From Arthrobacter pascens (GTDB lineage Bacteria; Actinomycetota; Actinomycetes; Actinomycetales; Micrococcaceae): 64,000 nucleotides of DNA. Made by a program: the position numbers and the translations under genes. The stretch spans positions 186,001 to 250,000 of the forward strand of contig NZ_JAFHKT010000148.1 in NCBI RefSeq assembly GCF_017052465.1, in the 5' to 3' direction. A model generated the notes under the pieces. It was not told where the DNA came from. It saw only the letters and a program-made list of their open reading frames with translations, and did no database searches. This document shows positions 2,337 to 20,804 of this stretch, piece after piece (positions within the stretch are counted from its first letter, which is position 1; every line of letters starts with the position of its first letter).

Positions 2337-3698
2337 ATGTCCACCGGCTCTCCCTTTACCCGGCTTGCTGGCCGCCTTCGCCGGCCACTTTTCACGGATG
2401 GGCCGTTCCGCAAGCGCGGACTGCCTCTTGGCAGGAACAGCCGGCTTCACCCGTCGGCGGTGTGGACCGAAGCCGGCAAAACCGCCGGACAGGCTATTGC
2501 TCCGGCCTGGGATGCCGTCCGCGGCGCCTGGTCACGCCGCGTCCAGCCCGTGCTGGGCGTGGTGAGCGTCCTCGGCTGGTCTGTCCTCGGGGCGGCCGTG
2601 CTGCTGTGGGCAGCCGGAGAAGCCTACGGCTGGCAGGAGGCCAAAGCCGCGGCCGTCGCGGCGCTGGTTCTGTTTCTCATTGCCGTCGGCTTTATCCTTG
2701 GCAGGTCCTCCTATGGTGTCCTGCTGGACCTGGCCCGGACCCGTGTTGCGGTGGGGGACAGCGCGGTGGGAAGCATCGCCGTGTCCAACACTTCGGCGCG
2801 TCCGCTGCTGCCCGCAGACCTTGAGCTGCCGGTGGGGGCTTCCACGGCTGTCTTCCACCTGCCGCGCATGAAACCGCAGCAGGTGCATGAGGATCTTTTC
2901 ACCATTCCCACCGCACGCCGTGCGGTGATCGCCGTCGGGCCGGTGCGTTCCGTCCGGGCCGATCCGCTGCGCCTCCTGCGCCGCCAGGTGCTCTGGACGA
3001 AGCCCCAGGACCTTTACGTCCACCCGAAGACGGTGGCGCTGGCAGGATCCGCCGCCGGCTTCATCCGTGACCTGGAGGGCATGCCCACCACCGACCTCTC
3101 CAGCGCGGATGTCTCGTTCCACGCGCTGCGCGACTACGTACCGGGCGATGACCGGCGCCATATCCACTGGAAGACCACGGCCCGGACCAACAAGCTCATG
3201 GTGCGCCAGTTCGAGGAGACCCGGCGCGCCCACCTCGCAATATCGCTGTCCGTCAACACCGATGAGTACGCCTCCGAACACGAATTTGAAATGGCCATCT
3301 CCGCTGCCGCCTCCATCGGCCGCCAGGCCATCCGTGAACAGCGCGAGCTGGACGTCCTCACCCAGGCCGGGCCGCTGCGCTGCGAGACCGGCCGCACCAT
3401 GCTGGACGGCATGACCCGGATCGCCGGCACCCCCCTGCGGAAGACCGCCGTGGACCTAGCCCGGACGCTGGCCGACACCGTCCCCAACGCCTCGGTGGTC
3501 TTCTTCGTGGTGGGCAGCCAGGTGACGCCCACGCAGCTGCGGTCAGCAGGTGCTTCGGTGCCGCCGGGGGTCCGCAGCCTGGCAGTACGCGTCGACGCCG
3601 GTGCTGCACCCGCCCGCGCGAACATCGGAGACCTCACCGTGCTCACCCTCGGTGAACTCTCCGACCTTCCCGCTGTCCTGAGAAAGGCAGCCGCATGA
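2337..3698 (+). CDS. DUF58 domain membrane protein
   Basis: A 453-residue protein. Two membrane helices lie at roughly residues 68-95 and 100-120, followed by a beta-rich segment. The DUF58 signature is near residues 262-290 (ALRDYVPGDDRRHIHWKTTA). DUF58 proteins carry a von Willebrand A-like fold and are the standard partner of MoxR ATPases. The N-terminal 60 residues are basic and poorly conserved in character. The gene starts 74 bases after moxR, and its stop overlaps the start of the transglutaminase-like gene by four bases (ATGA), pointing to translational coupling. Its biochemical role is unknown in the family. Here it is inferred to be a scaffold between the MoxR ATPase and the membrane complex. 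Confidence 0.9.
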   Translation: MSTGSPFTRLAGRLRRPLFTDGPFRKRGLPLGRNSRLHPSAVWTEAGKTAGQAIAPAWDAVRGAWSRRVQPVLGVVSVLGWSVLGAAVLLWAAGEAYGWQEAKAAAVAALVLFLIAVGFILGRSSYGVLLDLARTRVAVGDSAVGSIAVSNTSARPLLPADLELPVGASTAVFHLPRMKPQQVHEDLFTIPTARRAVIAVGPVRSVRADPLRLLRRQVLWTKPQDLYVHPKTVALAGSAAGFIRDLEGMPTTDLSSADVSFHALRDYVPGDDRRHIHWKTTARTNKLMVRQFEETRRAHLAISLSVNTDEYASEHEFEMAISAAASIGRQAIREQRELDVLTQAGPLRCETGRTMLDGMTRIAGTPLRKTAVDLARTLADTVPNASVVFFVVGSQVTPTQLRSAGASVPPGVRSLAVRVDAGAAPARANIGDLTVLTLGELSDLPAVLRKAAA

Positions 3699-6112
3699 GC
3701 CAGGCAACCAGTCTCCGTCCGCGCCGGCAGGCTCCGCCGCCGTCGGCCTTCTCCAGCGGCCAGCCGCCGTGGCACTTTCTGCTCGACGCCGGAGCGCTCA
3801 CCGTCCTGCTGGGGCTGGGGGTCCTGGGCTTCAGTCTCAGCTTCGGAGGCGACCCGTACTATCTGGCCGCAGGGTTCGGCGGAGTCGTCCTCGGCCTCGC
3901 CATCGCCGCCTCAAATGCACACTTCCGCTTGGGGCTCCTGATCACCACCGCCCTGGCGCTCGGCGCATACCTGGTCCTCGGCACCGCGCTCGCAGTGCCC
4001 GGGGCGGCCATCGCCGGGGTCATCCCGAGCCTCGAGTCACTGCGTACGCTTCTGCTCGGCGTCGTGTTCGCATGGAAGGACATGCTTACGGTCGGTGTTC
4101 CGGTGGGTACCGCCGGGGGAGTGCTCATCGTTCCCTTCCTCAGCTCGCTCATTGCCGGACTTGTCGCCGGAATCCTGACCTGGCGGACGCGCAGCCCCTA
4201 CTGGCCGTTGCTGCCCGTGCTGGCCCTGTTCGTCACCGGGATCGCCTTCAGCACCAACGCAGGGTTCCTGACCGTTGAAAGGGGCATTGCGCTGACTGTT
4301 GTGGGCATCGCCTGGGCCACCTTCCGCCGGGACTGCCTCCGGCGCAGCAACACCCTGAAGGTGTCCGTCAACCGTCCGCAGCACGACGCCGACACGGCCC
4401 GCCGCGCCAGAATGCGCAGGCTGGCCGCCGGGGCAGCGGTCATCGCGGTGACTGTCGGCATCACGGCCGCTGTTTCGCCCCTCATCTCCGCGGGCGACGA
4501 ACGGAGGGTTTTGCGCAACGTCATTGTGCCGCCGTTCGACCCAAAGGACTACGTCACGCCCCTGGCGAGCTTCCGCAACTTGGTCAAGGACAAGAAGGAC
4601 GACCCGCTGTTTGCGGTCAAGGGCCTTCCCAAGGACGCACGCGTGCGGCTCGGAGCGCTGGACGCCTTCAACGGGACGAACTACACCATGGATCCGAACG
4701 GGTCCGGCAACTTCAGCAAGGTGGGCGATGCTAAGTCCATCAATACGCTGGCGGATTCCGCCGGACCGGTTCCGACGAACGAGTACACCCTGGACATCAC
4801 CGTCGAGGACTATCAGGGCTACTTCGTTCCCGGCGGCAGGAGGACCACCGGCCTCAGCTTCGCGCCGGGTTCCTCCGCCCCGGCCACAGGGCTGTACTTC
4901 AACTCCGGAACGGACACGGCTGTCACCACCCAGGGCCTGTCCACGGGGGATTCGTACAGCGTTCAGGTCTCGGAACCGGTGAAGCTCGAACACGGGCAGC
5001 TGACGCAGTATGACTTCGCCAAGATGACGCTCCCGGACGTCGCGGACATCCCTCCCGTTGTCGGTGCGCAGGCCAACGATCTGACAGCCGACGCCCCCAC
5101 CGCCGTCGACCAGGTGCGCCAAATCGAAGCCCACTTCCAAAAGAAGGGCGCCTTCAGCAACGGGCTCATCGCCGACGGCCAGCTGCCGAGCCTCTCCGGC
5201 CACAGCGCGGCCCGCATCCGCGACCTGCTGACAGCCAAGCAGATGCTCGGCGACGACGAACAGTACGCCGTGGCCATGTCCCTCATGCTGCGCCACCTGG
5301 GCATCCCGTCCCGGGTGGTCATGGGCTTCTATCCAGACCCGAAGAGCCCCGAAAACGGCGCCGGGGAAATCAAGATCATGGGCAAGGATGTCCACGCGTG
5401 GGTCGAGGTCGCGTTCGACCGTGTCGGCTGGGTGCCGTTCGACCCCACGCCGCCCAAGGACAACATTCCCATTCCGCCGGACCCTGAAAACAAGTCGAAA
5501 CCGAAGCCGCAGGTGCTTCAGCCGCCGCCCCCGCCGCAGGAGCCGGCCGACCTTCCGCCGGACTCTTCTCCGGACGCGCTGGACGCCGATGAGAAGAAGA
5601 ACAACCCCTGGCTGTTTTGGGGACCCATCCTCAGCGCGGTCGGCATTGCCATGATTCCGCTTGGAATCCTGGCGCTCCCGCTGCTGCTCATCGCGCTTCT
5701 GAAGTCGCGGCGGCGCAAGTCCCGGTTCACGGACGGACATCCCGCGCAGCGCGTGGGTGGCGGGTGGAACGAGGTCCTCAGCCTTGCCACCGACATGGGC
5801 GCGGCCGTTGACACCCGCGCGACGCGGAGGGAATCCGCCGCCGTCGTCGCCGAGGCCTTCCCCGCCGCCAGCACTGCCACCACACAGCTGGCCCACAGGG
5901 CCGACGCGTCCATTTTCGGGGCCGGCCAGCCCAGTGAGGAAGAAGTCCGGGAGTACTGGACCATTGTGGACGGTTCGCTGAAGGACATGACGGCGACGGT
6001 CGGCTTCTGGCGACGCCAGCAGGCACGGTTCTCGCCGCGGTCCCTGCTGGCTGACGCCCGGGCCGCCCTCAGCCGCCGCGGCGCAGGATGGCGAGGGCCG
6101 AAGCGACCATGA
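3695..6112 (+). CDS. Membrane transglutaminase-like protein lacking the catalytic Cys
   Basis: An 805-residue protein. About seven N-terminal membrane helices (residues ~25-270) are followed by a large extracytoplasmic part holding a transglutaminase-like (TGc) domain. A Pro-rich stretch, one more helix (~640-680) and a cytosolic DUF4129-like tail come next. The TGc core is recognisable (EQYAVAMSLMLRHLGIPSRV; HAWVEV with the His; FDPTPP with the Asp). However, the nucleophile position, normally Cys in a G-x-C-[DE]-Q-[FY]-A context, reads Asp521 (GDDEQYA). The domain is therefore predicted to be catalytically inactive and probably structural or binding. It overlaps DUF58 upstream and the RDD/FHA gene downstream by ATGA. 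MoxR-DUF58-TGc is a recurrent triad in bacteria. Confidence 0.9.
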   Translation: MSQATSLRPRRQAPPPSAFSSGQPPWHFLLDAGALTVLLGLGVLGFSLSFGGDPYYLAAGFGGVVLGLAIAASNAHFRLGLLITTALALGAYLVLGTALAVPGAAIAGVIPSLESLRTLLLGVVFAWKDMLTVGVPVGTAGGVLIVPFLSSLIAGLVAGILTWRTRSPYWPLLPVLALFVTGIAFSTNAGFLTVERGIALTVVGIAWATFRRDCLRRSNTLKVSVNRPQHDADTARRARMRRLAAGAAVIAVTVGITAAVSPLISAGDERRVLRNVIVPPFDPKDYVTPLASFRNLVKDKKDDPLFAVKGLPKDARVRLGALDAFNGTNYTMDPNGSGNFSKVGDAKSINTLADSAGPVPTNEYTLDITVEDYQGYFVPGGRRTTGLSFAPGSSAPATGLYFNSGTDTAVTTQGLSTGDSYSVQVSEPVKLEHGQLTQYDFAKMTLPDVADIPPVVGAQANDLTADAPTAVDQVRQIEAHFQKKGAFSNGLIADGQLPSLSGHSAARIRDLLTAKQMLGDDEQYAVAMSLMLRHLGIPSRVVMGFYPDPKSPENGAGEIKIMGKDVHAWVEVAFDRVGWVPFDPTPPKDNIPIPPDPENKSKPKPQVLQPPPPPQEPADLPPDSSPDALDADEKKNNPWLFWGPILSAVGIAMIPLGILALPLLLIALLKSRRRKSRFTDGHPAQRVGGGWNEVLSLATDMGAAVDTRATRRESAAVVAEAFPAASTATTQLAHRADASIFGAGQPSEEEVREYWTIVDGSLKDMTATVGFWRRQQARFSPRSLLADARAALSRRGAGWRGPKRP

Positions 6113-7413
6113 CTGACCCGAAGACTGAGGGCATGAAGACTGCCGGCGGCAGGCGCTGCGGCCACTGCGGACAGCCGCTTCGCGCCGGGGCGAGCTACTG
6201 TGGCGCCTGCGGGGCGGCAACGCAGCCCGTGAGGTTTCCCGGTAGCATCAAGCCCACGGGGCAGGGGGAGCGGCGGGGGGAGCCGCAGGGGGAAGGAACG
6301 GACATGGGAACGAAACTGGAGCTGGTCCCGGCGGCGCCCGGAAAACGCCTCGGGGCCGCAGTGCTGGACTGGCTTGCACCGGCGGTTGTCCTGGTGGTCC
6401 TTTTCTCCCTCGGCTTCGCCAGCGTCACAAGTTCCCGCAGCGCCGGCTTCATCGTCTACGACACCGGAACACTTGCCCTGTTGGGAGGCATCGCTGTCGG
6501 CCTGACGCTCGTCTACCTTTTCGTCCTCGCCGGCGTCGAGGGCCGTTCCGGGAGCACCATTGGCAGCCGGGCGATGGGCATCCGCACGACCGACAAGGAC
6601 GGCTACGCGCCGGGGACGGGCGCCGTCGTCCTGCGCGGAACCGTCACGGGCGCCGGGGTGCTGCTGGCCGTTGCGGCCGCCGTCGCCGTGGTGATTTTCC
6701 GGTGGTTCGACGCCGCACTGTGGATCCTGGGCCCGCTGGCGCTGTTGGCCGCCGCGTGGGCCTTCCTCGTCGTCGTCTCCAGCTCCTGGGACAGGGACGG
6801 CGGGCTCCAGGGATGGCAGGACCGGGCCGCCAAGACGCTCGTGTTTGATGTTCATGCCGGGCGAAACCCGGTGACGTCAGGCGGCATCCAGGGGCCGTAC
6901 AGCTTCGCCCCGCTGGACCTCCCTCCTGTCCAGCCGGTTTCTTCACCGGTGGCCGTCGCCGCCAGTGCCGCAAGCCTGCCCGTCGTCGATCGGCCGGAAC
7001 CCAACCCATCCGACGCCGGCCACCCGGACGATGTCCTCGACCGCACGCAGCTGCGCGGTTCCGGGCAGGAGGCACCGCCCGTGGCGGTGCTCAGGATACG
7101 GCTCGACGACGGCCGCGACTTCCGTCTGGAGCGCAGCGTGCTGATCGGGCGTAACCCCGCCGCCGGTGCCGGAGAGTCCCAGGCGCAGCTGCTGGCCGTG
7201 CCGGATCCCGGACGGACCATTTCAAAAACGCACCTGCACCTGCTCACCGACGGCGCCGGCGTGTGGGTCACAGACCGCAACTCGACCAACGGCAGCGCCG
7301 TCACCACACCGGACGGCGTCCGCACTGCGTTAGTGCCCGGCGTCCCTTCATTTGTCAGCCCCGGGACCACCGTTCATTTCGGGGACCGCACCTTCAACGT
7401 AGGACAGGCATGA
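6109..7413 (+). CDS. Zinc-ribbon / RDD membrane / FHA domain protein
   Basis: A 434-residue protein with three recognisable parts. An N-terminal zinc ribbon (CGHCGQPL...YCGACG) covers residues ~17-38. An RDD-type membrane domain with about four helices starts GKRLGAAVLDW. After a Pro-rich linker, the C-terminal FHA domain (IGRNP..., ISKTHLHL, DRNSTNGS) keeps the GR, S..H and NG residues that bind phosphothreonine. I chose the ATG at 6109 because it overlaps the upstream stop as ATGA; an ATG at 6088 is an alternative. The protein probably ties a membrane complex to phosphorylation by the kinase encoded at 9993. This link is inferred from the operon. Confidence 0.85.
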   Translation: MTDPKTEGMKTAGGRRCGHCGQPLRAGASYCGACGAATQPVRFPGSIKPTGQGERRGEPQGEGTDMGTKLELVPAAPGKRLGAAVLDWLAPAVVLVVLFSLGFASVTSSRSAGFIVYDTGTLALLGGIAVGLTLVYLFVLAGVEGRSGSTIGSRAMGIRTTDKDGYAPGTGAVVLRGTVTGAGVLLAVAAAVAVVIFRWFDAALWILGPLALLAAAWAFLVVVSSSWDRDGGLQGWQDRAAKTLVFDVHAGRNPVTSGGIQGPYSFAPLDLPPVQPVSSPVAVAASAASLPVVDRPEPNPSDAGHPDDVLDRTQLRGSGQEAPPVAVLRIRLDDGRDFRLERSVLIGRNPAAGAGESQAQLLAVPDPGRTISKTHLHLLTDGAGVWVTDRNSTNGSAVTTPDGVRTALVPGVPSFVSPGTTVHFGDRTFNVGQA

Positions 7414-8291
7414 ATTCACAGCAGGCGGCCCGCACCGAATCGGCCGGCGGAAGGCCAGGCCTCAACCTGAGCTACGGCTACGGAACGGACCGCGGCCTTC
7501 GCCGCGAGCTCAACGAGGACTCCTTTATAGCGTCCGACCCGATCTTCGCCGTCGCGGACGGCATGGGAGGCCATGAGGCCGGCGAAGTCGCCAGCGGCAT
7601 GTGCGTGCGCGCCCTGGCAACGTTGCCCCAGCTGGCCACCGGAGAGCGGACAGCCACGGCCTCGGTGGTGCAGCAGTACCTGGCCATCGCGGACGACTCC
7701 ATCCGCGCCGCCACAGGATCGCGCGCGGGTACCACGCTGACGGGCGTGGTGGTGGTGGAACAGATGGGCATCCCCTACTGGCTGGTCATGAACATCGGTG
7801 ATTCCCGGACCTACCGGCTGAGCCAGGGCAGGCTCGCCCAGATCAGCGTGGACCACTCGGAAGTCCAGGAGCTGGTGGACACCGGAGAAATCACGGCGGA
7901 GGAGGCCACGGTCCATCCCCGGCGCCACGTGGTCACCCGGGCGCTGGGCACGGGCGATGAGACGGAGGCTGATTACTGGCTGCTTCCCATCGAGGAGGGC
8001 GACCGCATGATGGTCTGCTCCGACGGGCTCAACGGCGAACTCACGGACGACCAGATGTTTGACATCCTCAACACGGTGCCGGACCCCCAGGAAGCCGTTG
8101 ACCTGCTGATCCAGGCGGCACTGAGGAGCGGCGGCCGGGACAACGTCACGGTGATTGTCGTCGACGCCAGGAATGTCCTGAACGAGGATGGCGTCTCCAC
8201 CACGGCACCGAGGACTGCGGCTGCGGCGGAGGACGAGGATACGCTGCCGCGCCACGCGGGAAACGGGGAAACTGCACATGACGGCAGCTAG
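7410..8291 (+). CDS. PP2C-family Ser/Thr protein phosphatase
   Basis: A 293-residue PPM/PP2C phosphatase with all signature blocks: RRELNEDSF, ADGMGGHEAGE (metal-binding Asp), RAGTTLTG, NIGDSRTYRL, CSDGLNGELTDDQM and GGRDNVTVIVV. The metal-binding acids are kept, so it should be active. It is expected to reverse phosphorylation by the kinase at 9993-11636 on FHA partners coded in the same operon. The ATG at 7410 overlaps the upstream stop (ATGA). The last ~35 residues are a disordered acidic tail overlapping the next gene by 14 bases. Kinase, phosphatase and FHA genes together are typical of actinobacterial signalling, but here they are embedded in a secretion-type operon. Confidence 0.93.
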   Translation: MNSQQAARTESAGGRPGLNLSYGYGTDRGLRRELNEDSFIASDPIFAVADGMGGHEAGEVASGMCVRALATLPQLATGERTATASVVQQYLAIADDSIRAATGSRAGTTLTGVVVVEQMGIPYWLVMNIGDSRTYRLSQGRLAQISVDHSEVQELVDTGEITAEEATVHPRRHVVTRALGTGDETEADYWLLPIEEGDRMMVCSDGLNGELTDDQMFDILNTVPDPQEAVDLLIQAALRSGGRDNVTVIVVDARNVLNEDGVSTTAPRTAAAAEDEDTLPRHAGNGETAHDGS

Positions 8292-9996
8292 CTACGCTCC
8301 AGGCAGCTGGTTCGGGATCCTCCGCTCGGGGACGGCCGTCATTTTGGGCCCGGAGTCTCAGCCTGCCCTCGTCCGGAAGGTCTGGGACCTGCTGCAGGGC
8401 GCGCCGGAGGTCCACGAGGTACTGCACGCAGTAACGGGGGGTCTGGGTGTGCCGCTGTCCCGGTGCCCGCAGTTTGGCATCATCGGCTTCCGCGAATCCT
8501 TGCGGGTCTTCCTGCGCGGCGAGCTCGAGCTGAGTGTCCAGCTGCCGACCGGCACGGTGAAGCTGGACGGCCGGAACGTCACCACGTGGACGGAGCGGTG
8601 GCTTGACTCTCCGGAGTGGTTCAGCCTGGCCGTCCCCGGAGTGCCGGACAAGAACGGCAAGACCGATGAAACCGGCCGGCCGGCTGCAACGGACCTTGAG
8701 CTGCCCGTGGCTGAAGGCGTGGTTCTACTTCAGTCGCTGCGGCTGGCCGTGGCCGGAACAGGAACTGCGGGAACCGGAACTGCCGCCGCGGCCTTAGCGG
8801 CGGCGGAAACGTCAGCGGAAACCCTGGCTGCAATGCCGGCGGGGGCCGGTGAGACGGTGTCTGATGAGACGCGGGTGGATGCGGTGGTTCCTGAGGAGCC
8901 GTTGCTTGAAGAACCGCAGCCTGACGAACCGCAGGCTGACGAGCCGGTGCGGGAAGACGACGGCAATCCTGGGGACCTGCCGCAGCCGGCCAGCGAACTG
9001 ACCAGTTCGTATGACCATCTGTGGGACAAGACCGTGGTGCGCAGCATCGAGGGTGCGGCGGTGCGGACCGGGGAAGACGCCGAGGAAGCACCAATGCACG
9101 GGGCTGCAGCCGCATCACAAGGTGCTGCAGACATTCCGGATGCGGCTGAATCTCCAGAAGCCGCGGCTCAAGATGCCGGGGCTGAACAGGCCGCAGCATC
9201 AGAAACCGGGCTTCCGGCAGCAGGCCCGGAAGCCGGCCCGCCGGCGGTCCCGGCGTCAGGCCCCGCGGCGGGCGGGCTGATCGATTCCGTGCCGTGGGCA
9301 ACGCGCAGTGACAACGGCCAGCGTCCTCCTGCACCGCCGTCGTTCATCCCGTTGCCGGATCTCGGCACCACGGCGGCGCCCGAGCCGCAGCCCGGGCAGG
9401 GCCAGCCGGAGACGCCGGCCCGTCCCGCCGAGGGCGACCACGACGGCCAGACGGTTTTGAAGAGTGAACTCAGGGCCGCGCCCGACCAGCCCCCGGCGGC
9501 ATCCGGCGCCGCGCCCGGCGGCGGTCCGCTGGCCGGCGGTCCCCTGGTACTGGCGCGGGTGTGCGCAGCGGGCCACGCGAACCCTCCCACCAACGGGCAG
9601 TGTTCCACGTGCGGTTCGCCGCTCCCCGACGTCGCTGTGCAGGTGCCCCGTCCCCGGCTGGGACAGGTGCGGCTCTCCACCGGCGAAGTGATTGGGCTGG
9701 AGGAGTCGCTCGTCATCGGCCGGCAGCCGTCCGTCTCCAGGGTCCAGGGCGGTGCCATGCCGCGGCTGGTCCAGGTGGCCAGCCCCGGCGGCGACATCTC
9801 GCGGTCCCACATCGAGGTCAGGCTCGAGGGCTGGCATGTGATGCTGTGCGACCTCAAGGCGACCAATGGCACGGTGCTGGTCCGCGAGGGCCAGCCGCCG
9901 CGACGCCTGGCCCAGAATGAAATGGCGATCGTCCTGGACGGGGACGTCGCAGAACTTGGCGACGACGTTTCGTTGCGTTTTGAGGAGATTCTTTGA
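8278..9996 (+). CDS. FHA domain protein with long Ala/Pro linker and zinc-ribbon-like motif
   Basis: A 572-residue cytoplasmic protein with no membrane helix. The N-terminal ~130 residues form a folded domain I do not recognise (starts MTAASYAPGSWFGILRSG). Some 290 residues of low-complexity Ala/Glu/Pro/Gly linker follow. A four-Cys/His ribbon-like segment (VCAAGHANPP...CSTCGSPLP) precedes a C-terminal FHA domain with conserved GRQPS, SRSH and ATNGT elements. The start at 8278 overlaps the phosphatase stop by 14 bases. Zinc ribbon plus FHA repeats the layout of the protein at 6109, without its membrane part. It is probably a phosphothreonine reader for the adjacent kinase; its target is unknown. 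Confidence 0.85.
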   Translation: MTAASYAPGSWFGILRSGTAVILGPESQPALVRKVWDLLQGAPEVHEVLHAVTGGLGVPLSRCPQFGIIGFRESLRVFLRGELELSVQLPTGTVKLDGRNVTTWTERWLDSPEWFSLAVPGVPDKNGKTDETGRPAATDLELPVAEGVVLLQSLRLAVAGTGTAGTGTAAAALAAAETSAETLAAMPAGAGETVSDETRVDAVVPEEPLLEEPQPDEPQADEPVREDDGNPGDLPQPASELTSSYDHLWDKTVVRSIEGAAVRTGEDAEEAPMHGAAAASQGAADIPDAAESPEAAAQDAGAEQAAASETGLPAAGPEAGPPAVPASGPAAGGLIDSVPWATRSDNGQRPPAPPSFIPLPDLGTTAAPEPQPGQGQPETPARPAEGDHDGQTVLKSELRAAPDQPPAASGAAPGGGPLAGGPLVLARVCAAGHANPPTNGQCSTCGSPLPDVAVQVPRPRLGQVRLSTGEVIGLEESLVIGRQPSVSRVQGGAMPRLVQVASPGGDISRSHIEVRLEGWHVMLCDLKATNGTVLVREGQPPRRLAQNEMAIVLDGDVAELGDDVSLRFEEIL

Positions 9997-11636
9997 GTTC
10001 CAAGCGGCCGGCAGCCCCGCCGCCCCACATCCCCGGTTTCACCTATGTCAGCCTGCTCGGATCGGGCGGGTTCTCCGACGTCTACCTGTATGAACAGGAC
10101 CGTCCGCGCCGCAAGGTGGCCGTGAAGGTCCTGCTTTCCGGCCTCAAGACGGAGGGCGCCCGGCGGAGGTTTGAGTCCGAGGCCAACCTCATGGCCCAGC
10201 TGTCCTCGCACCCGTTCATCGTCACCATCTTCGAAGCCGAGGTCACGGATGACGGGCACTCCTACCTCGCGATGGAATACTGCTCACGGCCCAGTTTGGA
10301 TGTCCGGTACCGGCGGCAGCGCTTCAGCGTCGATGAGGTCCTGGCCATCGGCATCCAGGTTGCCTCCGCCGTCGAGACCGCCCACCGGGCAGGCATAGCG
10401 CACCGCGACATCAAGCCCGCCAACATCCTGGTCACCGACTACAACCGCCCCGCGCTCACGGACTTCGGCATCTCCGGCACGCTCGGCGGCGCCGCGGACG
10501 AGGACGCGGGGATGTCCATCCCGTGGTCCCCGCCGGAACAGTTCCACGACGGAAACGTCGACGGCGTCCTGGTGGATGTCTGGGCGCTGGGCGCCACCCT
10601 GTACACGCTGCTGGCCGGCCGGTCACCGTTTGTCCTGCCGGGCGCGGACAACTCGCAACGCGAACTGATCTCGCGGATCACCAGCATGCCTGTGCCGCGC
10701 CTTGGCAGGGCGGACGTGCCCGAATCACTTGAGCTCGCCCTGGCAACGGCCATGGCAAAATCGGCGACCTCCCGCTATTCGTCGGCCCACGCCTTCGCCC
10801 TCGCGCTGCAGCGCATCCAGGCGGAGCTGAACCTGTCGGTCACACCGTTCGAAGTCCTCGAGGAGCGGCAGCAGGAGGACGACCACGCCGACGACGGCGT
10901 CGAGGAGACCCGGGTCCGCAACGTTGCTTCCATCGACCCGGAGAAAACGGGCAGCGCCCCGACCTTTCCGGCGCGGACGTGGCCGCTGATTGGCGGGCAG
11001 CAGAGTCCGTCTCCTGCGGCACAGCCAGCAGCGCCGCCGTCGGCCGTTCCGTGGACGTCGCCGTCGAAACCTTCTGCGGCGCCGGGCGCCCTGCCGGCGG
11101 CATTTCCGGCGCCGGCAGCGGACGACGGCGGTGACTGGGCTCAGGCCACCGTCCTCCGGAGCAGCCGGCCAGAGCCCGCACCGGGACCGGAGAACCCGGA
11201 GCCCGCACAGGACCACGGCAAACGGAACCTCTGGCTGGCCATTGCCGGAGGGACGCTCCTGGTGCTGGCCATTGTCGTGGGCATCATTGTCGCGTCCACC
11301 GCGCCGCAGCCCCAGGCGCTGCCGAGTGAGCAGCCCAGCAAGCCGCCGGCCGACGCCCTGGATGACGGCTCCGTGCCGGACGTCGCCAAACTCGCGGGCA
11401 GCGTCGGGGCCGGTGGCAAGGTGCGGTTCACCTGGACCAACCCGCAGCCAAAACAGGGTGACACGTACAAGTGGCGGATCAAGACCGTCAAGGGCGGCGG
11501 GAACTACCTGTCAACGACCGCGCCGCGCGTGGACGTCAGCGCCAATCCCGATGAACCCACATGCGTGCAGGTGATCATCGTGCGCAATGACGGCTCGGCA
11601 TCTCCTGCCGGGGAAGATTCCATCGCGTGCGTCTGA
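9993..11636 (+). CDS. Membrane Ser/Thr protein kinase with FN3-like ectodomain
   Basis: A 547-residue Hanks-type kinase. The glycine loop is GSGGFSDVY, the ATP lysine K45 (VAVKVL), the catalytic loop H137-R-D139 (HRDIKPANIL), the DFG Asp D157, and the activation-segment end PWSPPEQF; all are intact, so it should be active. A ~150-residue Pro/Ala juxtamembrane linker leads to one membrane helix (~413-436). A ~90-residue extracellular FN3-like domain follows (VRFTWTNPQPKQGDTYKWRI), in place of the PASTA repeats of PknB. The start is TTG at 9993, with AGGAG five bases upstream and a four-base overlap with the FHA gene. The ectodomain suggests sensing of, or docking to, an envelope partner such as the FN3 protein at the operon head. 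Confidence 0.93.
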   Translation: MSSKRPAAPPPHIPGFTYVSLLGSGGFSDVYLYEQDRPRRKVAVKVLLSGLKTEGARRRFESEANLMAQLSSHPFIVTIFEAEVTDDGHSYLAMEYCSRPSLDVRYRRQRFSVDEVLAIGIQVASAVETAHRAGIAHRDIKPANILVTDYNRPALTDFGISGTLGGAADEDAGMSIPWSPPEQFHDGNVDGVLVDVWALGATLYTLLAGRSPFVLPGADNSQRELISRITSMPVPRLGRADVPESLELALATAMAKSATSRYSSAHAFALALQRIQAELNLSVTPFEVLEERQQEDDHADDGVEETRVRNVASIDPEKTGSAPTFPARTWPLIGGQQSPSPAAQPAAPPSAVPWTSPSKPSAAPGALPAAFPAPAADDGGDWAQATVLRSSRPEPAPGPENPEPAQDHGKRNLWLAIAGGTLLVLAIVVGIIVASTAPQPQALPSEQPSKPPADALDDGSVPDVAKLAGSVGAGGKVRFTWTNPQPKQGDTYKWRIKTVKGGGNYLSTTAPRVDVSANPDEPTCVQVIIVRNDGSASPAGEDSIACV

Positions 11637-11720: not shown

Positions 11721-12425
11721 ATGGGAGATCTTGCGGTAGATTTCTGCGGCGAGTGGTACGAGCCATCGGACGACGACGTCTTCAGCATCGGCCGTGAAGG
11801 CGACTTGGAGGTGGACGACAACCCCTACCTCCACCGCCGCTTCCTCCAGATTGCCAGGTACGACGGCATCTGGTGGCTCAGCAACGTCGGCAGCATGCTC
11901 TCGGCCACCGTGGCCGACGCCTCCGGCGGCATGCAGGCGTGGCTTTCGCCGGGCGCCCGGCTGCCCCTGGTCTTCAGCCACACCAACATCATCTTCACGG
12001 CGGGTCCCACCACCTATGAATTCAGCGTTCACGTGAAAACGCCCACCTTCCGGCAGGAAACCCGCGGGGACGACACCGCCGGGGACACCACCATCGGCCC
12101 GGTCGTGTTCACCGACTCCCAAAAGGCACTGATCGTCGCCCTCGCCGAGCCCATGCTGCGCAGGGACGGCACGGGATTCAGCGCCATACCGTCGTCCGCG
12201 GCGGCCGCGAAGACCCTCGGCTGGGCACTGACCAGGTTCAACCGGAAGCTCGACAACGTGTGCGACAAGCTGGACCGGGTGGGCGTGGCCGGCCTCAGGG
12301 GAGGGGGCGGCAAACTGGCCACCAACCGGCGTGCCCGGCTGGTGGAGCATGCCGTGACCTCGCACCTGGTGACCCCCGATGACCTGTACCTGATCGACAA
12401 GATGAGAGGGGTCGACGAAGGATGA
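11721..12425 (+). CDS. FHA-like protein with C-terminal winged-helix-like domain
   Basis: A 234-residue protein. Residues ~1-115 look like an FHA fold (FSIGREGDLEVDD... then ...TTYEFSVHV), but the phosphothreonine-binding residues are degenerate: LHRRFL stands where SRxH is expected and there is no clear NG pair. Residues ~130-225 (AAAKTLGWALTRFNRKLDNVC, then a basic RRARLVEHA helix) look like a winged-helix domain and may bind DNA or protein. It follows the kinase after 84 bases and has AGGAG at 11705-11709. Its stop overlaps the FtsK-like gene by ATGA. It may be a phosphorylation-independent adaptor or a regulator; this is inference. Confidence 0.75.
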   Translation: MGDLAVDFCGEWYEPSDDDVFSIGREGDLEVDDNPYLHRRFLQIARYDGIWWLSNVGSMLSATVADASGGMQAWLSPGARLPLVFSHTNIIFTAGPTTYEFSVHVKTPTFRQETRGDDTAGDTTIGPVVFTDSQKALIVALAEPMLRRDGTGFSAIPSSAAAAKTLGWALTRFNRKLDNVCDKLDRVGVAGLRGGGGKLATNRRARLVEHAVTSHLVTPDDLYLIDKMRGVDEG

Positions 12426-15400
12426 GAATCCGACTGACGCTGCGCCGTGATCCCGCCGAAGCCAAAGACCTTGCCGTCACAGTGGACGGCCTCGCCACCG
12501 TGGCCGACATCGCGGCGGAACTCTGGACCGCTGATCCGGGGCGGCGGAACGACCCCGCACCGCCGAACCTCTCGCTCCGCATCGACGAGGCGTTCGTGGC
12601 CGGTGGCATGCGCGGCCTCGTGCTCAACCGCGGCGACCACCTGCTGGAATCGGGCCTGCGGCCCGGATCGGTCGTATCCCTGACGCAGGTCAGCGAGCAG
12701 TTCGGCATCCCGGGAGCAGGCCAGGCGGCCGGCCGCGGCCCTGCCGCCGCGACGCTCCGCATCCTGTCGGGGCCCGACGTCGGGCGGGAGTTCTCGTTGC
12801 CGTCGGGCGCCAGCTACATCGGCCGGGACCGGGACGCGGACATCCGGCTCACGGACCCTCTCACGTCGAAGCGGCACGCACGCATCAGCGTGGGCGAGAG
12901 CGTGGAGATTGTGGACACGAACTCCGCCAACGGACTGCAGATGGGCGGGCTGCCCATCACCCGGGCCACGCTCAGCTCCTCGGACACCGTGACGCTGGGG
13001 GACACCGAGATCACGGTGGTGCCGCTGGCCCGCAGCGGCGCGGCAGCACCGACGTCGCCCCTGGTGGACTTCAACCGTTCGCCGCGGGTGGTGCCCCGGT
13101 TCGCTCCGGCCCGGCGGATGCCGCCGGCAGGACCGAAGCGCCCGGACCACCACGCCTTCCCCTACATCATGCTGATTGCCCCGCTGATCATGGGCGCCGT
13201 CCTCTTCACCGTGACGCAGAGCCTGCTGTCGATGCTCTTCGTGCTGATGATGCCGCTGTTCATCGTGGGGCACTACGTGGACCAGAAACTGCAGAGCAAG
13301 CGGGAACGAAAGGAACAGCTCAAGGAGTACCGGGAGTCCATGGCGGCGTTCCGGCAGGATCTCACCGCCCTGCAGCAGGTGGAACGGGCCGTCCGGCTGC
13401 AGGAGGCTCCATCGGTCAGCGACACAGTGGACTCGATTTACAAGCTCGGACCGCTGCTCTGGACCCATCGTCCTGAGCACCCCGGCTTCCTGGGCCTTCG
13501 CTTCGGGCTCGGGACCGCGCCGTCGCGGATTCCGATTGAGGAGCCGAACACCTCGGCGACGGACGCGGAGTACCGGCTCGAGATCCAGGCGTGCCTGGAC
13601 CAGTTCCGGGAGATCGAGGGCGTGCCCGTGGTGTCCCAGCTGCGCTCGTCCGGCGCCTTCGGACTGGCCGGCCCGCGCGGGCTGGTGGACGATGTGGCCC
13701 GCGGCATGGTGCTGCAGCTGGTGGGACTCCATTCGCCCGCCGAGGTTGCCGTGGCGGCCATCACCTCCACCCGTTCGCGGGAACGCTGGAACTGGCTGCA
13801 GTGGCTTCCGCACGTCGGCTCGAGCCACAGCCCGCTCCCCGGCGACCACCTGGCCACGGGATCGGCCAGCGGGGCGAGCCTGCTGGCACGCCTCGAGGAA
13901 CTGGTGGAATCCCGCGAATCCAAGCTGCAGTCGCCGGGCCCGGCTCCCAGGCCCGGCATCCACGGCGACGACGGGGAAATTCCGGCCCCGGTGCTGCCCT
14001 CGGTCCTGGTCATCATCGAGGATGACGCCCCTGTGGACCGTGGACGGCTCACCCGGCTGGTGGAACGCGGGCCCGACTCCGGAGTGCACGTTCTGTGGGT
14101 GGCCACCGGTGTGGAAGCGCTTCCCGCCGCGTGCCGCGACTTCATGGAGGTCGACGGCGAACACGGCACCACCACCGGGCAGGTGAGGCTGGGACGCCAT
14201 ACGTACCCCGTCAGCTGCGAAAGCCTCGACGCCGAACTCGCGGGCCAGCTGGCCCGCATGCTTTCGCCCGTGGTCGACGCCGGGAAGCCCCTGGAGGACG
14301 ACTCGAACCTGCCGCGGGCCGTGTCCTACGCGGCGCTGATCGGCAAGGACTTCCTGGACAACCCCGACGCGGTGGTTGAACGCTGGCAGGAGAATAACTC
14401 CGTCCGGTCCACCGCTGTCGCGAACCGCAAGGACAACGGATCCCTGCGCGCCCTGGTGGGATCCAAGGGCGTCGAGCCGCTGTACCTGGACCTCAAGAAC
14501 GAAGGGCCCCACGCGCTGGTCGGCGGCACCACCGGCGCCGGCAAGTCCGAGTTCCTGCAGTCCTGGGTGCTGGGCATGGCCACCGCCTACAGTCCGGACC
14601 GGGTCAGTTTTCTGTTCGTGGACTACAAGGGCGGCGCCGCCTTCGCGGACTGCCTGCACTTGCCGCACACGGTGGGCCTGGTCACCGACCTTTCCCCGCA
14701 CCTGGTGCGCCGCGCGCTGACCTCCCTCCGCGCAGAGCTTCACTATCGTGAACGCCTGCTGAACCGGAAGAAGGCCAAGGACCTGCTGGCCCTGCAGCGC
14801 GACGCCGATCCCGAGGCGCCGCCCTACCTGGTGATCGTGGTGGACGAGTTCGCTGCCCTGGCCACGGAAGTGCCGGAATTCGTGGACGGAGTGGTTGACG
14901 TCGCCGCGCGTGGCCGGTCGCTCGGGCTGCACCTGATCCTCGCGACGCAGCGCCCGGCCGGTGTCATCAAGGAGAGCCTGCGCGCCAACACCAACCTCCG
15001 GGTGGCGCTGCGGATGGCCGATGAGGACGATGCCACGGACATCCTGGGCGTGCCGGACGCCGCCTACTTCGATCCCTCCATTCCGGGGCGCGGCGCGGCG
15101 AAGACCGGTCCGGGCCGCATCCAGGGGTTCCAGACCGGCTATGCCGGCGGCTGGACCACGGAGCGGCCGCAGCGCCCGCAGATCGACATAGTGGAGATGG
15201 CCTTTGGTTCCGGCCCCGTCTGGGAAACCCCGGCTCCGGAGACTGCCGTCAGGGAAGAACCCGCAGGGCCCAACGACATTGCCAGGATGACGGCCAACGT
15301 CATCCGGGCCGCGGACATGCTGGCCATCGAACCGCCGCGGAAGCCGTGGCTCAATGAGCTGGCCATGACCTATGACTTCTCGCTGCTGCCCAACCCCCGC

Positions 15401-16879
15401 ACCGACGAGCGGCTGCTGCTCGGCGTCGCCGACGATCCTGCCCACCAGGATCAGCCCACGGTCTTCTACGAGCCGGATCAGGACGGCAACATGGCCATCT
15501 ACGGCACGGGCGGTTCGGGCAAGTCGGCGGCCCTGCGGGGCATCGCCATCGCGGCGGCCGTGACGCCGCGCGGCGGCCCGGTCCATGTGTACGGCATCGA
15601 CAGCGGTTCCGCCGGCCTGACGATGCTCGAGGAGCTCCCGCACGTGGGCGAGATCATCGACGGCGACGACGCCGAGCGTGTGGGCCGGCTGCTGCGCTGG
15701 CTCCGCGACCTCGCCGAGGACCGGGCCGCCCGCTTCGCCGAAGTCCGGGCATCCACGATCGTGGAATACCGGAAGCTGGCCGGCATGCCGGACGAGAAGC
15801 GCATCTTCGTGCTCGTGGACGGCATGTCCGCCTTCCGGGAAGCCTATGAATACACGCGGCTGTCCGGGCTGTGGGACATCTTCCTGCAGCTGGCAACCGA
15901 CGGCCGTCCCCTGGGCATCCACCTGGTTGTTGCCGGTGACCGGCCCAACTCCGTCCCGCCGTCGTTGCTTGCCTCCATCCAGCGCCGGCTGGTGCTGCGG
16001 CTGTCCTCCGAGGATGACTACATGACAATGGACGTCCCGAAGGATGTCCTGGGCAAGGCCTCGCCTCCCGGGCGCGGCCTCCTCGGCGGCCACGAGGTGC
16101 AGCTGGCCGTCCTGGGCGGCAACTCCAACCTGGCCCTGCAGGCCCGGGAGGTCCACAAGCTCAGCGAGGCCATGCTTCGCCAGGGCGTCGAGCGGGCTCC
16201 GCGGATTGAGCGGCTGCCGGAGCAGGTGGACCTGGATATCCTGCCCGCCGGTCGGCCGGACCAGCCCGTCGTCGGCATCGATGACGAGACGCTCCAGCCC
16301 GCCGTCCTCATGGCCAAGGGCGCCCTGCTGCTCGCCGGGCCCCCTGGATCCGGGCGGACCGTGGCGCTGGTGACCCTGGCCTACGCGCTGCGCCGGTCGA
16401 ACCCGGATGCCGAACTGGTGTACATCGCCTCGCGGAGATCGGCCGTGGCGTCATTGCCCGTCTGGAACCGTTCGCTGGTGGGGGCCGACGACGTCGAGGA
16501 GGCGGTCGAGGCGCTGACGGACCATTCCTCGGCCAATCCGGGGAAGCTGGCCGTCTTCATCGAGGGGCTCACGGAGTTCACTGGCACCCTCGCGGAATCC
16601 GGCGTCGAGCGGCTCGTCACGTCCTCGATCAAGGCCGACCAGTGGGTGGTGGGCGAATCCGAGACGTCCACCTGGTCCTCTGCATGGTCACTGGCCCAGC
16701 CGTTCAAGTCCGGAAGGCGCGGACTCCTGATCAACCCGGGGGACATGGACGGCGACAGCCTGCTCAACACCTCACTCGGGAGGGTCAGTTCCGACTTCAT
16801 TCCGGGAAGGGGCTACATCGTCGGCAGGGGCAAGGTGCGCAAACTCCAGATCGCCCTGCCGCCGGAAAACCGGCAGTAG
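12422..16879 (+). CDS. EssC/EccC-like FtsK-SpoIIIE triple ATPase with FHA domain
   Basis: A 1485-residue membrane ATPase. Residues 1-95 resemble a ubiquitin-like or FHA-related module. An FHA domain is at ~125-200 (YIGRDRDADIRL, SKRHARIS, NSANG). Two membrane helices lie at ~247-290, followed by three FtsK/SpoIIIE ATPase domains. D1 has intact Walker A (GGTTGAGKSEF, ~701) and Walker B (VIVVDEF). D2 has Walker A GTGGSGKSAA (~1028) with Walker B FVLVDG. D3 is degenerate (GPPGSGRT, Lys to Arg, ~1306). FHA-TM-TM-D1-D2-D3 and the length (~1480) match EssC of Firmicutes type VII secretion better than mycobacterial EccC. It is the likely motor of the operon. DNA translocation is less likely because the C-terminal FtsK gamma domain is absent. 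Confidence 0.9.
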   Translation: MRIRLTLRRDPAEAKDLAVTVDGLATVADIAAELWTADPGRRNDPAPPNLSLRIDEAFVAGGMRGLVLNRGDHLLESGLRPGSVVSLTQVSEQFGIPGAGQAAGRGPAAATLRILSGPDVGREFSLPSGASYIGRDRDADIRLTDPLTSKRHARISVGESVEIVDTNSANGLQMGGLPITRATLSSSDTVTLGDTEITVVPLARSGAAAPTSPLVDFNRSPRVVPRFAPARRMPPAGPKRPDHHAFPYIMLIAPLIMGAVLFTVTQSLLSMLFVLMMPLFIVGHYVDQKLQSKRERKEQLKEYRESMAAFRQDLTALQQVERAVRLQEAPSVSDTVDSIYKLGPLLWTHRPEHPGFLGLRFGLGTAPSRIPIEEPNTSATDAEYRLEIQACLDQFREIEGVPVVSQLRSSGAFGLAGPRGLVDDVARGMVLQLVGLHSPAEVAVAAITSTRSRERWNWLQWLPHVGSSHSPLPGDHLATGSASGASLLARLEELVESRESKLQSPGPAPRPGIHGDDGEIPAPVLPSVLVIIEDDAPVDRGRLTRLVERGPDSGVHVLWVATGVEALPAACRDFMEVDGEHGTTTGQVRLGRHTYPVSCESLDAELAGQLARMLSPVVDAGKPLEDDSNLPRAVSYAALIGKDFLDNPDAVVERWQENNSVRSTAVANRKDNGSLRALVGSKGVEPLYLDLKNEGPHALVGGTTGAGKSEFLQSWVLGMATAYSPDRVSFLFVDYKGGAAFADCLHLPHTVGLVTDLSPHLVRRALTSLRAELHYRERLLNRKKAKDLLALQRDADPEAPPYLVIVVDEFAALATEVPEFVDGVVDVAARGRSLGLHLILATQRPAGVIKESLRANTNLRVALRMADEDDATDILGVPDAAYFDPSIPGRGAAKTGPGRIQGFQTGYAGGWTTERPQRPQIDIVEMAFGSGPVWETPAPETAVREEPAGPNDIARMTANVIRAADMLAIEPPRKPWLNELAMTYDFSLLPNPRTDERLLLGVADDPAHQDQPTVFYEPDQDGNMAIYGTGGSGKSAALRGIAIAAAVTPRGGPVHVYGIDSGSAGLTMLEELPHVGEIIDGDDAERVGRLLRWLRDLAEDRAARFAEVRASTIVEYRKLAGMPDEKRIFVLVDGMSAFREAYEYTRLSGLWDIFLQLATDGRPLGIHLVVAGDRPNSVPPSLLASIQRRLVLRLSSEDDYMTMDVPKDVLGKASPPGRGLLGGHEVQLAVLGGNSNLALQAREVHKLSEAMLRQGVERAPRIERLPEQVDLDILPAGRPDQPVVGIDDETLQPAVLMAKGALLLAGPPGSGRTVALVTLAYALRRSNPDAELVYIASRRSAVASLPVWNRSLVGADDVEEAVEALTDHSSANPGKLAVFIEGLTEFTGTLAESGVERLVTSSIKADQWVVGESETSTWSSAWSLAQPFKSGRRGLLINPGDMDGDSLLNTSLGRVSSDFIPGRGYIVGRGKVRKLQIALPPENRQ

Positions 16880-16965: not shown

Positions 16966-20804
<3,839 letters not shown>

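Follow-up and report, generated by a model that had tools for sequence, protein, structure and literature searches.

An FHA-bearing EssC/EccC-type ATPase closing a PFNA operon in Arthrobacter pascens, probable motor of a type VII-like secretion system

The 64,000-nucleotide stretch of Arthrobacter pascens DNA analysed here (contig NZ_JAFHKT010000148.1, positions 186,001 to 250,000, in the following called the window) carries a large ATPase gene at 12422-16879 on the forward strand. An earlier note, made from the letters alone, had described an ATPase with the layout of Firmicutes EssC that is not an EccC. Domain content, tree position, gene linkage and the presence of a WXG100-like gene were computed for this locus and its relatives. 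The protein (the motor) is probably the counterpart of EssC, EccC and TsdC in an actinobacterial, kinase-gated, type VII-like secretion system, related to the subtype T7SSd of the type VII secretion systems (T7SS) and equipped with a gene set of its own.

Architecture and tree position of the motor

The gene is an intact open reading frame (ORF) of 1485 amino acids (aa), whose ATG shares four bases with the stop codon of the preceding gene. Pfam assigned FtsK_SpoIIIE (E 2.4e-58) and FHA (residues 133-193, E 3.8e-11; YscD-type FHA, 113-200, E 2.6e-14). Among the NCBIfam models, EssC (TIGR03928) reached the top score with 533 bits (cut-off 778), followed by EccCa (343, cut-off 509) and EccCb (287, cut-off 347), all below cut-off. 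On the basis of Pfam, NCBIfam and the trees, the product was classified as an FHA-bearing EssC/EccC-type ATPase, a TsdC-like motor, and the membrane FtsK ATPase by which a T7SS of any type is recognised is present. Hydropathy places two transmembrane (TM) helices within residues 246-286 (246-264 and 268-286; 13157-13279, forward strand), and a low-confidence model of residues 1-320 has helices at 248-265 and 268-319. The D1 ATPase domain (14426-14959, forward strand; Pfam FtsK_SpoIIIE) contains the P-loop GTTGAGKS at residue 702 (14525-14548) and the Walker B motif VDEF. Motif reading and alignment located the P-loops of D2 (GTGGSGKS, residue 1028, 15503-15526) and D3 (GPPGSGRT, residue 1306, 16337-16360) on the same strand. 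The layout of FHA domain, helix pair and three ATPase domains that had been read from the letters was thereby confirmed, together with the intact Walker A motifs of D1 and D2 and the exchange of lysine for arginine in D3.

The P-loop and FHA residue counts were taken from one alignment of 47 members of the actinobacterial group described below, every aligned member being counted. The P-loop lysine and the Walker B glutamate of D1 are each kept in 47 of 47 members. The P-loop position of D2 is occupied by Lys in 33, Arg in 11 and Thr in three members, and that of D3 by Arg in 39, Lys in seven and Val in one. Because arginine is found in 39 of the 47, the exchange in D3 is a trait of the group, and a special meaning for it in the window was dropped. 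The deposited sequences of Arthrobacter sp. Hiyo4 and StoSoilB13 (L147, L073) have a broken motor ORF, with matching ORFs of no more than 538 and 1037 aa, respectively, for which sequencing errors could be responsible.

Two trees of the D1 domain were calculated. For the first (67 rows), L147 and L073 with their interrupted ORFs and L002, which is the same gene as L008, were dropped beforehand; the second comprised 75 rows including four FtsK outgroups, after removal of the near-duplicates L011, L169, L035, L153 and L158. In the 67-row tree, EccC forms a separate group of 16 rows (support 100/99), Bacillota EssC groups with two divergent Actinomycetota rows (seven rows, 99/99), and the motor falls among 43 actinobacterial rows that form a third group (98/99). 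The node joining EssC with the latter has a support of 87/0. The 75-row tree contains EccC with 14 rows (100/100), EssC with six rows (99/97) and a sub-group of 15 rows with the window (96/85). These sequence comparisons support the assignment of the motor to a third, actinobacterial group apart from EccC and Bacillota EssC.

Given the placement among 43 actinobacterial rows, the notion that the layout is specially Firmicutes-like, or odd for an actinobacterium, is not supported. Such an ATPase is not unusual there: a phylum-wide sample of 296 genomes contained relatives in 56 at E 1e-30, and at E 1e-40 they were found in 275 of 297 genomes of the order, although this second count also takes in EccC, paralogues that have diverged and short proteins lacking an FHA domain. 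Among the matches listed, those with E 0 (at least 41% identity) came from 84 genomes. Close relatives of the motor, with 65-93% identity where given, were collected from 65 loci of Arthrobacter, Pseudarthrobacter, Paenarthrobacter, one Renibacterium metagenome-assembled genome (MAG) and one Micrococcaceae MAG.

Ubiquitin-like N-terminus, FHA domain and kinase

The first 95 residues had been overlooked in the earlier note. In an alignment of 34 group members they form a conserved block with an invariant Gly82, which is followed by the FHA domain. AlphaFold2, Foldseek, VIA-align and hhalign point to a ubiquitin fold for residues 1-92 (12422-12697, forward strand). The AlphaFold2 model of residues 1-98 (pLDDT 80, pTM 0.71) has the order strand-strand-helix-strand-helix-strand, as in ubiquitin. 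Judged by their titles, the best 50 Foldseek matches listed are mostly ubiquitin, SUMO, TmoB and other ubiquitin-fold chains, and they include two chains of an ESX-5 complex (7np7_D1 and D2), which we take to be EccD. VIA-align superposed the model on YukD (2bps_A) with Z 9.8, a root-mean-square deviation (rmsd) of 2.6 and 79 aligned positions, and on the ESX-3 chain 6sgx_B, presumably EccD3, with Z 10.4, rmsd 3.1 and 83 aligned positions; on top of the matches listed was Rad60 SLD2 (Z 11.0). The profile of the N-terminus matched six YukD proteins in hhalign at E 1.7e-4, and at E 5.3e-4 with a longer alignment. Searched as single sequences, L022 (E 0.0037) and L020 (E 0.0084) matched Pfam YukD, and seven of ten N-termini matched no ubiquitin-like Pfam family. 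The N-terminus of a Streptomyces group member aligns over 80 columns (E 1.4e-7); for the motor at locus L264 the alignment spans just 35 columns (E 8.6e-5).

For a separate YukD, leave-one-out hidden Markov models (HMMs) recovered the omitted protein in all six cases, and the full HMM gave one weak ORF (E 0.37) over 25 group loci; therefore no separate YukD was found beside the fusion. A ubiquitin-like part, the component reported missing from T7SSd, thus appears to be fused to the motor here, as far as the predicted models go, and this seems to be new.

The FHA domain (residues 112-196, 12755-13009, forward strand) was assigned by Pfam, a local HMM, Foldseek with a low-confidence model, and conservation. 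Its recognition residues are kept in most of the 47 aligned members (Arg135 in 40, Ser149 in 40, His152 in 40 and Asn170 in 39). Pfam found FHA in 33 of the 34 members aligned for the N-terminus, and a local FHA profile matched 36 of the 43 group rows and none of the 16 EccC rows. The seven group rows without a match are L018, L031, L035, L036, L038, L163 and L165; the FHA domains of L035 and L036, whose rows had been cut short, became visible once longer DNA was read. In Foldseek, the model of residues 1-320 matched FHA domains (GarA, Rv0020c) and, lower down, ubiquitin-like folds, but it is too weak to judge the FHA domain alone, and the assignment rests on sequence.

Second upstream of the motor lies the gene of a membrane Ser/Thr kinase (9993-11636, forward strand; Pfam Pkinase, E 2.7e-39) with one TM helix (415-433) and the intact Hanks motifs GSGGF, VAVK, HRDIKPAN and DFG. 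The locus thus holds counterparts of two T7SSd components, namely an FHA-bearing ATPase with the conserved phosphothreonine residues of TsdC and a membrane kinase with intact motifs, a candidate TsdD by its kinase type. Given the conserved recognition residues and the intact Hanks kinase encoded two genes before the motor, the earlier suggestion that the FHA domain may bind phosphothreonine is plausible.

Operon, gene linkage and WXG100-like genes

The motor gene closes a PFNA operon, an arrangement that seems to be new. Kinase, FN3 protein, MoxR, DUF58 and transglutaminase are clustered as in PFNA operons, and of the nine junctions six overlap by at least four bases, while the other gaps measure 104, 74 and 84 bases. 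All genes lie on the forward strand. The operon begins upstream of the window with a giant protein of 2040 aa (L007:5064-11186; C-terminal part at 1-1186), which has one N-terminal TM helix, ten Big_9 (Big_9/cadherin-like) and three fn3 stretches. It is followed by a MoxR AAA+ ATPase (1291-2262; Pfam AAA_3, E 5.6e-63), a DUF58 membrane protein with two helices (2337-3698; E 2.3e-12), a polytopic transglutaminase-like protein (3695-6112; Transglut_core, E 1.3e-20) and a membrane protein combining zinc ribbon, RDD and FHA (6088-7413; RDD, E 8.8e-12; zinc ribbon and FHA each narrowly below cut-off). Next come a PP2C phosphatase (7410-8291; PP2C_2, E 1e-11) and a long protein with a C-terminal zinc ribbon seen by eye and a weak FHA match (8188-9996, true start perhaps 8278; Pfam FHA, E 6.6e-4, narrowly below cut-off). 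The kinase and a conserved 234-aa protein (11721-12425) with an FHA-like N-terminus by eye and no Pfam match complete the order before the motor.

Gene linkage was analysed in 20 genomes over 11 families, which were picked from the best order-wide matches and of which at most 20 kb each were read, so that some missing markers reflect region or contig ends (G540, G437). MoxR, DUF58 and transglutaminase stand beside the motor in 15 of the 20 genomes, the kinase in 18, and the giant protein and PP2C in 13 each. The 234-aa family is linked to the motor as tightly as the kinase (18 of 20). A WXG100-like ORF follows the motor on the same strand within 700 bp in 17 of the 20; in G323 it lies about 1.4 kb from the motor, and in the stretches read of G448 and G497 none was found. 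In G591 and G359 the motor is accompanied by a WXG100-like gene without W-x-G and by none of the PFNA markers. Three plasmids carry an annotated WXG100 beside group members, with no PFNA gene found near them, and on a Rothia terrae plasmid (L079) a group member is flanked by a kinase gene on one side and by RHS/DUF6531 genes on the other. The gene order in families f71, f3, f73 and f75 and in G208 (kinase, 234-aa protein, giant protein, MoxR, DUF58, transglutaminase, motor) resembles that of L264, where a kinase is followed by a short TM protein, a 1798-aa protein carrying helices at its two termini, the motor and an FHA protein.

Within the genus, 49 of the 61 genomes searched carry a WXG100-like family with the motif W-x-G-PDA. 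A search of the A. pascens genome with this family gave three matches (best E 1.4e-34), two of which were placed among the matches listed. The first is an 87-aa gene on a different contig from the motor (L277:9982-10245). The second is the N-terminal, WXG-like region of a 399-aa protein (L281:3800-4999, G000:C54); with the 215-aa ORF that comes next (L281:3800-5656 for the two), it lies among housekeeping genes and makes a candidate pair of substrate and partner. Scanned with Pfam WXG100, nine of ten candidates matched at E < 0.01 and one gave no match. A canonical WXG100 protein (L053:11072-11431, G000:C66; Pfam 60.8 bits) has no secretion ATPase within the 19 kb read around it.

From these parts, the following mechanism can be proposed. 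The membrane kinase would sense an outside signal and phosphorylate threonines on partner proteins; the FHA domains of the motor and of the operon's FHA proteins would bind these phosphothreonines, leading to assembly of the complex, and PP2C would reset the phosphorylation. The predicted N-terminal ubiquitin fold, a putative cousin of EsaB/YukD and of the cytosolic domain of EccD, may dock directly on the complex formed by its motor, in contrast to a subunit that is supplied separately. For the ATPase domains we infer a division of labour in which D1, with its invariant catalytic residues, would be the engine, and D3, mostly with Arg for Lys, and in some members D2, would be regulatory or substrate-reading. 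The motor would export a WXG100-like protein and its fusions, this helical hairpin being the likely substrate or co-substrate, whose gene stands beside the motor in most of the 20 genomes sampled and elsewhere in the A. pascens genome. The giant Ig/FN3 protein, where Ig stands for immunoglobulin-like, MoxR, DUF58 and the transglutaminase probably construct the cell-wall section of the export route.

Several findings weigh against this interpretation. A WXG100 gene was looked for at the window locus and none was found, and the Arthrobacter-group loci have a WXG100-like gene within the stretch covered in only 11 of 65 cases, several of the 65 stretches ending soon after the motor. The WXG100-like protein of the own genome lies below the Pfam cut-off (E 0.0027), and among the ten candidates only the orphan L053 protein exceeds it; four of 18 nearby WXG100-like proteins (G536, G591, G604, G359) have no W-x-G tripeptide. 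For the N-terminus, the hhalign probability of a match to YukD is only 49%, or 31% with the longer alignment, Pfam YukD is matched weakly by four of the 34 group members (best E 0.003), the model of residues 1-320 is of low confidence (pLDDT 57), and the second paralogue in the own genome has no such N-terminus (E 0.12). With the four FtsK outgroups, the broad group of 51 rows appears as an unresolved fork and not as a clade, although a single clade is not rejected (p 0.46). Finally, the giant protein lacks a C-terminal helix, unlike TsdI, and an FN3 profile found no match in the giant protein of L264; its identity with TsdI is thus not supported.

Further genes were recorded beside these. The interval between the motor and ligA codes for a protein rich in Pro and Ala (16970-17641, forward strand) that has a TM helix near its C-terminus (194-212); it looks exported by eye, and an ORF resembling it is present in 19 of the 65 related loci. 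This family varies among Arthrobacter strains, at times with two copies (L133), and adjoins the WXG100-like gene where that is present. It has a single TM helix, as is described for TsdH, but being Pro-rich and anchored at its C-terminus it is a doubtful TsdH candidate. The second, strongly diverged FHA-FtsK paralogue of the own genome (1407 aa; L008:11347-15570, G000:C80) has whiB and a histidine kinase as neighbours. For ten small genomes of family f72, perhaps Bifidobacteriaceae, a motor linked to PFNA was considered and rejected: nine have only a short ATPase of 593-705 aa and the tenth (G393) has a short and a full form, and in the three neighbourhoods read (L262, L263, L265) the short ATPase is accompanied by whiB and a histidine kinase and by no PFNA genes. 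The short ATPase of about 620-650 aa in three f72 genomes (e.g., L262:7287-11130) shares its setting with the own-genome paralogue, an observation recorded with L167 as well.

Comparison with T7SSd, PFNA operons, EssC and EccC

In the trees, T7SSd is represented by L264, which we take for a T7SSd locus, the type locus of Olsenella uli and the Bifidobacterium TsdC lying outside the rows. Its motor falls in the broad group of the window, along with Streptomyces members, and in the 75-row tree it belongs to a different sub-group (seven rows, 99/98). Garrett, Higginson and Palmer (2024; PMC11217815) defined T7SSd for Actinomycetota by the components TsdA, C, D, H and I, and according to that text the FHA domain of TsdC keeps the phosphothreonine residues, so that FHA-bearing actinobacterial ATPases had already been published. 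The motor could simply be such a TsdC, in a genus that the main text of PMC11217815 does not name. This is a possibility to be taken seriously, albeit less likely than not. An EssC-related ATPase with an N-terminal FHA domain and its phosphothreonine residues, a Ser/Thr kinase, a giant Ig-like protein and WXG100 are shared, there is no separate ubiquitin-like protein in either, and both occur in Actinomycetota. The different sub-groups speak against identity, as do the additional conserved MoxR, DUF58, transglutaminase, PP2C and 234-aa genes and the several FHA proteins of the window locus; MoxR, transglutaminase, fibronectin, PFNA, Arthrobacter and Streptomyces have no mention in the main text of PMC11217815. 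The giant protein of the window has an N-terminal helix only, whereas TsdI has a signal peptide and a C-terminal TM helix. The label T7SSd-related is preferred to T7SSd because this C-terminal helix is missing and the rows compared did not include the named TsdC sequences.

The ATPase might instead serve cell-wall assembly or signalling of the PFNA cluster, with the WXG100-like neighbours being incidental, which is unlikely. MoxR, DUF58 and transglutaminase genes are usually chaperone or envelope genes, and the window locus itself has no WXG100. The Bifidobacterium PFNA operon (pkb2, fn3, aaa-atp, duf58, tgm, prpC, a hypothetical gene and fha) is described, in the text available of PMC8430577 and PMC6803598, as an adhesion/signalling operon; no EssC-type ATPase or WXG100 is described there and FtsK has no mention. 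It shares with the window the kinase, FN3 protein, MoxR ATPase, DUF58, transglutaminase, phosphatase and FHA, and differs in gene order (PMC8430577). A purely structural or signalling role is countered by the WXG100-like gene close downstream in 17 genomes of the 11-family sample, by the plasmid group members with annotated WXG100 away from PFNA genes, and by G591 and G359, where such a gene is the motor's only marker.

Under the preferred reading of an export motor, it is conceivable, at somewhat less than even chances, that the PFNA cluster of many Actinomycetales families is the core of a distinct type VII subtype, whose motor brings its own ubiquitin-like domain, whose giant Ig/FN3 adhesin is wall conduit or cargo, assembled by MoxR, DUF58 and transglutaminase, and which the operon kinase switches by phosphorylating threonines. 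In that case, the PFNA operon of bifidobacteria would be what is left after loss of the motor. Kinase and phosphatase genes that have so far been interpreted as serving the communication of gut bacteria with their host would belong to a kinase-gated export machine, little described to date, that is common throughout an actinobacterial order with soil and gut members. This would join two literatures, on the bifidobacterial host-communication operon and on type VII secretion, which were not found linked: among the open-licence papers listed, none connects, in its title or the start of its abstract, type VII secretion with MoxR, transglutaminase, fibronectin or FHA, or concerns a ubiquitin-like part fused with FHA and EccC.

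That the motor is an EssC (T7SSb) taken over from Bacillota or held in common with them is very improbable. EssC/YukB shares with the motor the FHA N-terminus, the membrane-helix pair, the ATPase domains and the D1 P-loop GTTG, and EssC is the top NCBIfam score. In approximately unbiased (AU) tests, which are weakened because the window's sub-group was defined only once the tree was known, placing that sub-group (13 rows) together with EssC was not rejected (p 0.075), yet it is not favoured. Against such an origin stand the separate group of actinobacterial sequences and the own genome, in which no match to YukC/EssB or YukD was found while the B. subtilis control was positive. The two FHA domains of EssC bind the pseudokinase EssB/YukC, as the YukB FHA region binds YukC in B. 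subtilis (PMC9600267). The motor has one FHA domain behind a predicted ubiquitin fold, and its operon a kinase with intact motifs. The EssC-like layout of the earlier note therefore stands for FHA domain, helix pair and ATPase domains and fails for the first part, which is not EssC's first FHA domain.

A divergent EccC of a T7SSa/ESX system, with which the motor shares membrane helices, ATPase domains and sub-threshold EccCa and EccCb matches, is largely refuted: the same 13 rows joined with EccC (14 rows) were rejected (p-AU 0.013), none of the 16 EccC rows has an FHA match, and FHA domains are said in PMC9600267 to be absent from T7SSa coupling proteins, and in a search that covered EccB, YukC/EssB, YukD and EccD (EsaA, EssA, EccE and MycP lay outside it) the own genome gave no EccB match, against matches in all three other records searched, and no EccD match, the positive controls for EccD themselves scoring only below cut-off. 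The phylogeny with EssC, EccC and FtsK that the earlier note had proposed thus places the motor outside EccC, as that note had held.

The systems differ in where the ubiquitin fold sits. In ESX systems it is located on EccD, another subunit (PMC11217815, PMC9600267), and for T7SSd no ubiquitin-like component is reported in PMC11217815, though such components are otherwise common in T7SS. At the window locus it is predicted on the motor itself, and this fusion offers a possible answer to the component missing from T7SSd in the 2024 survey.

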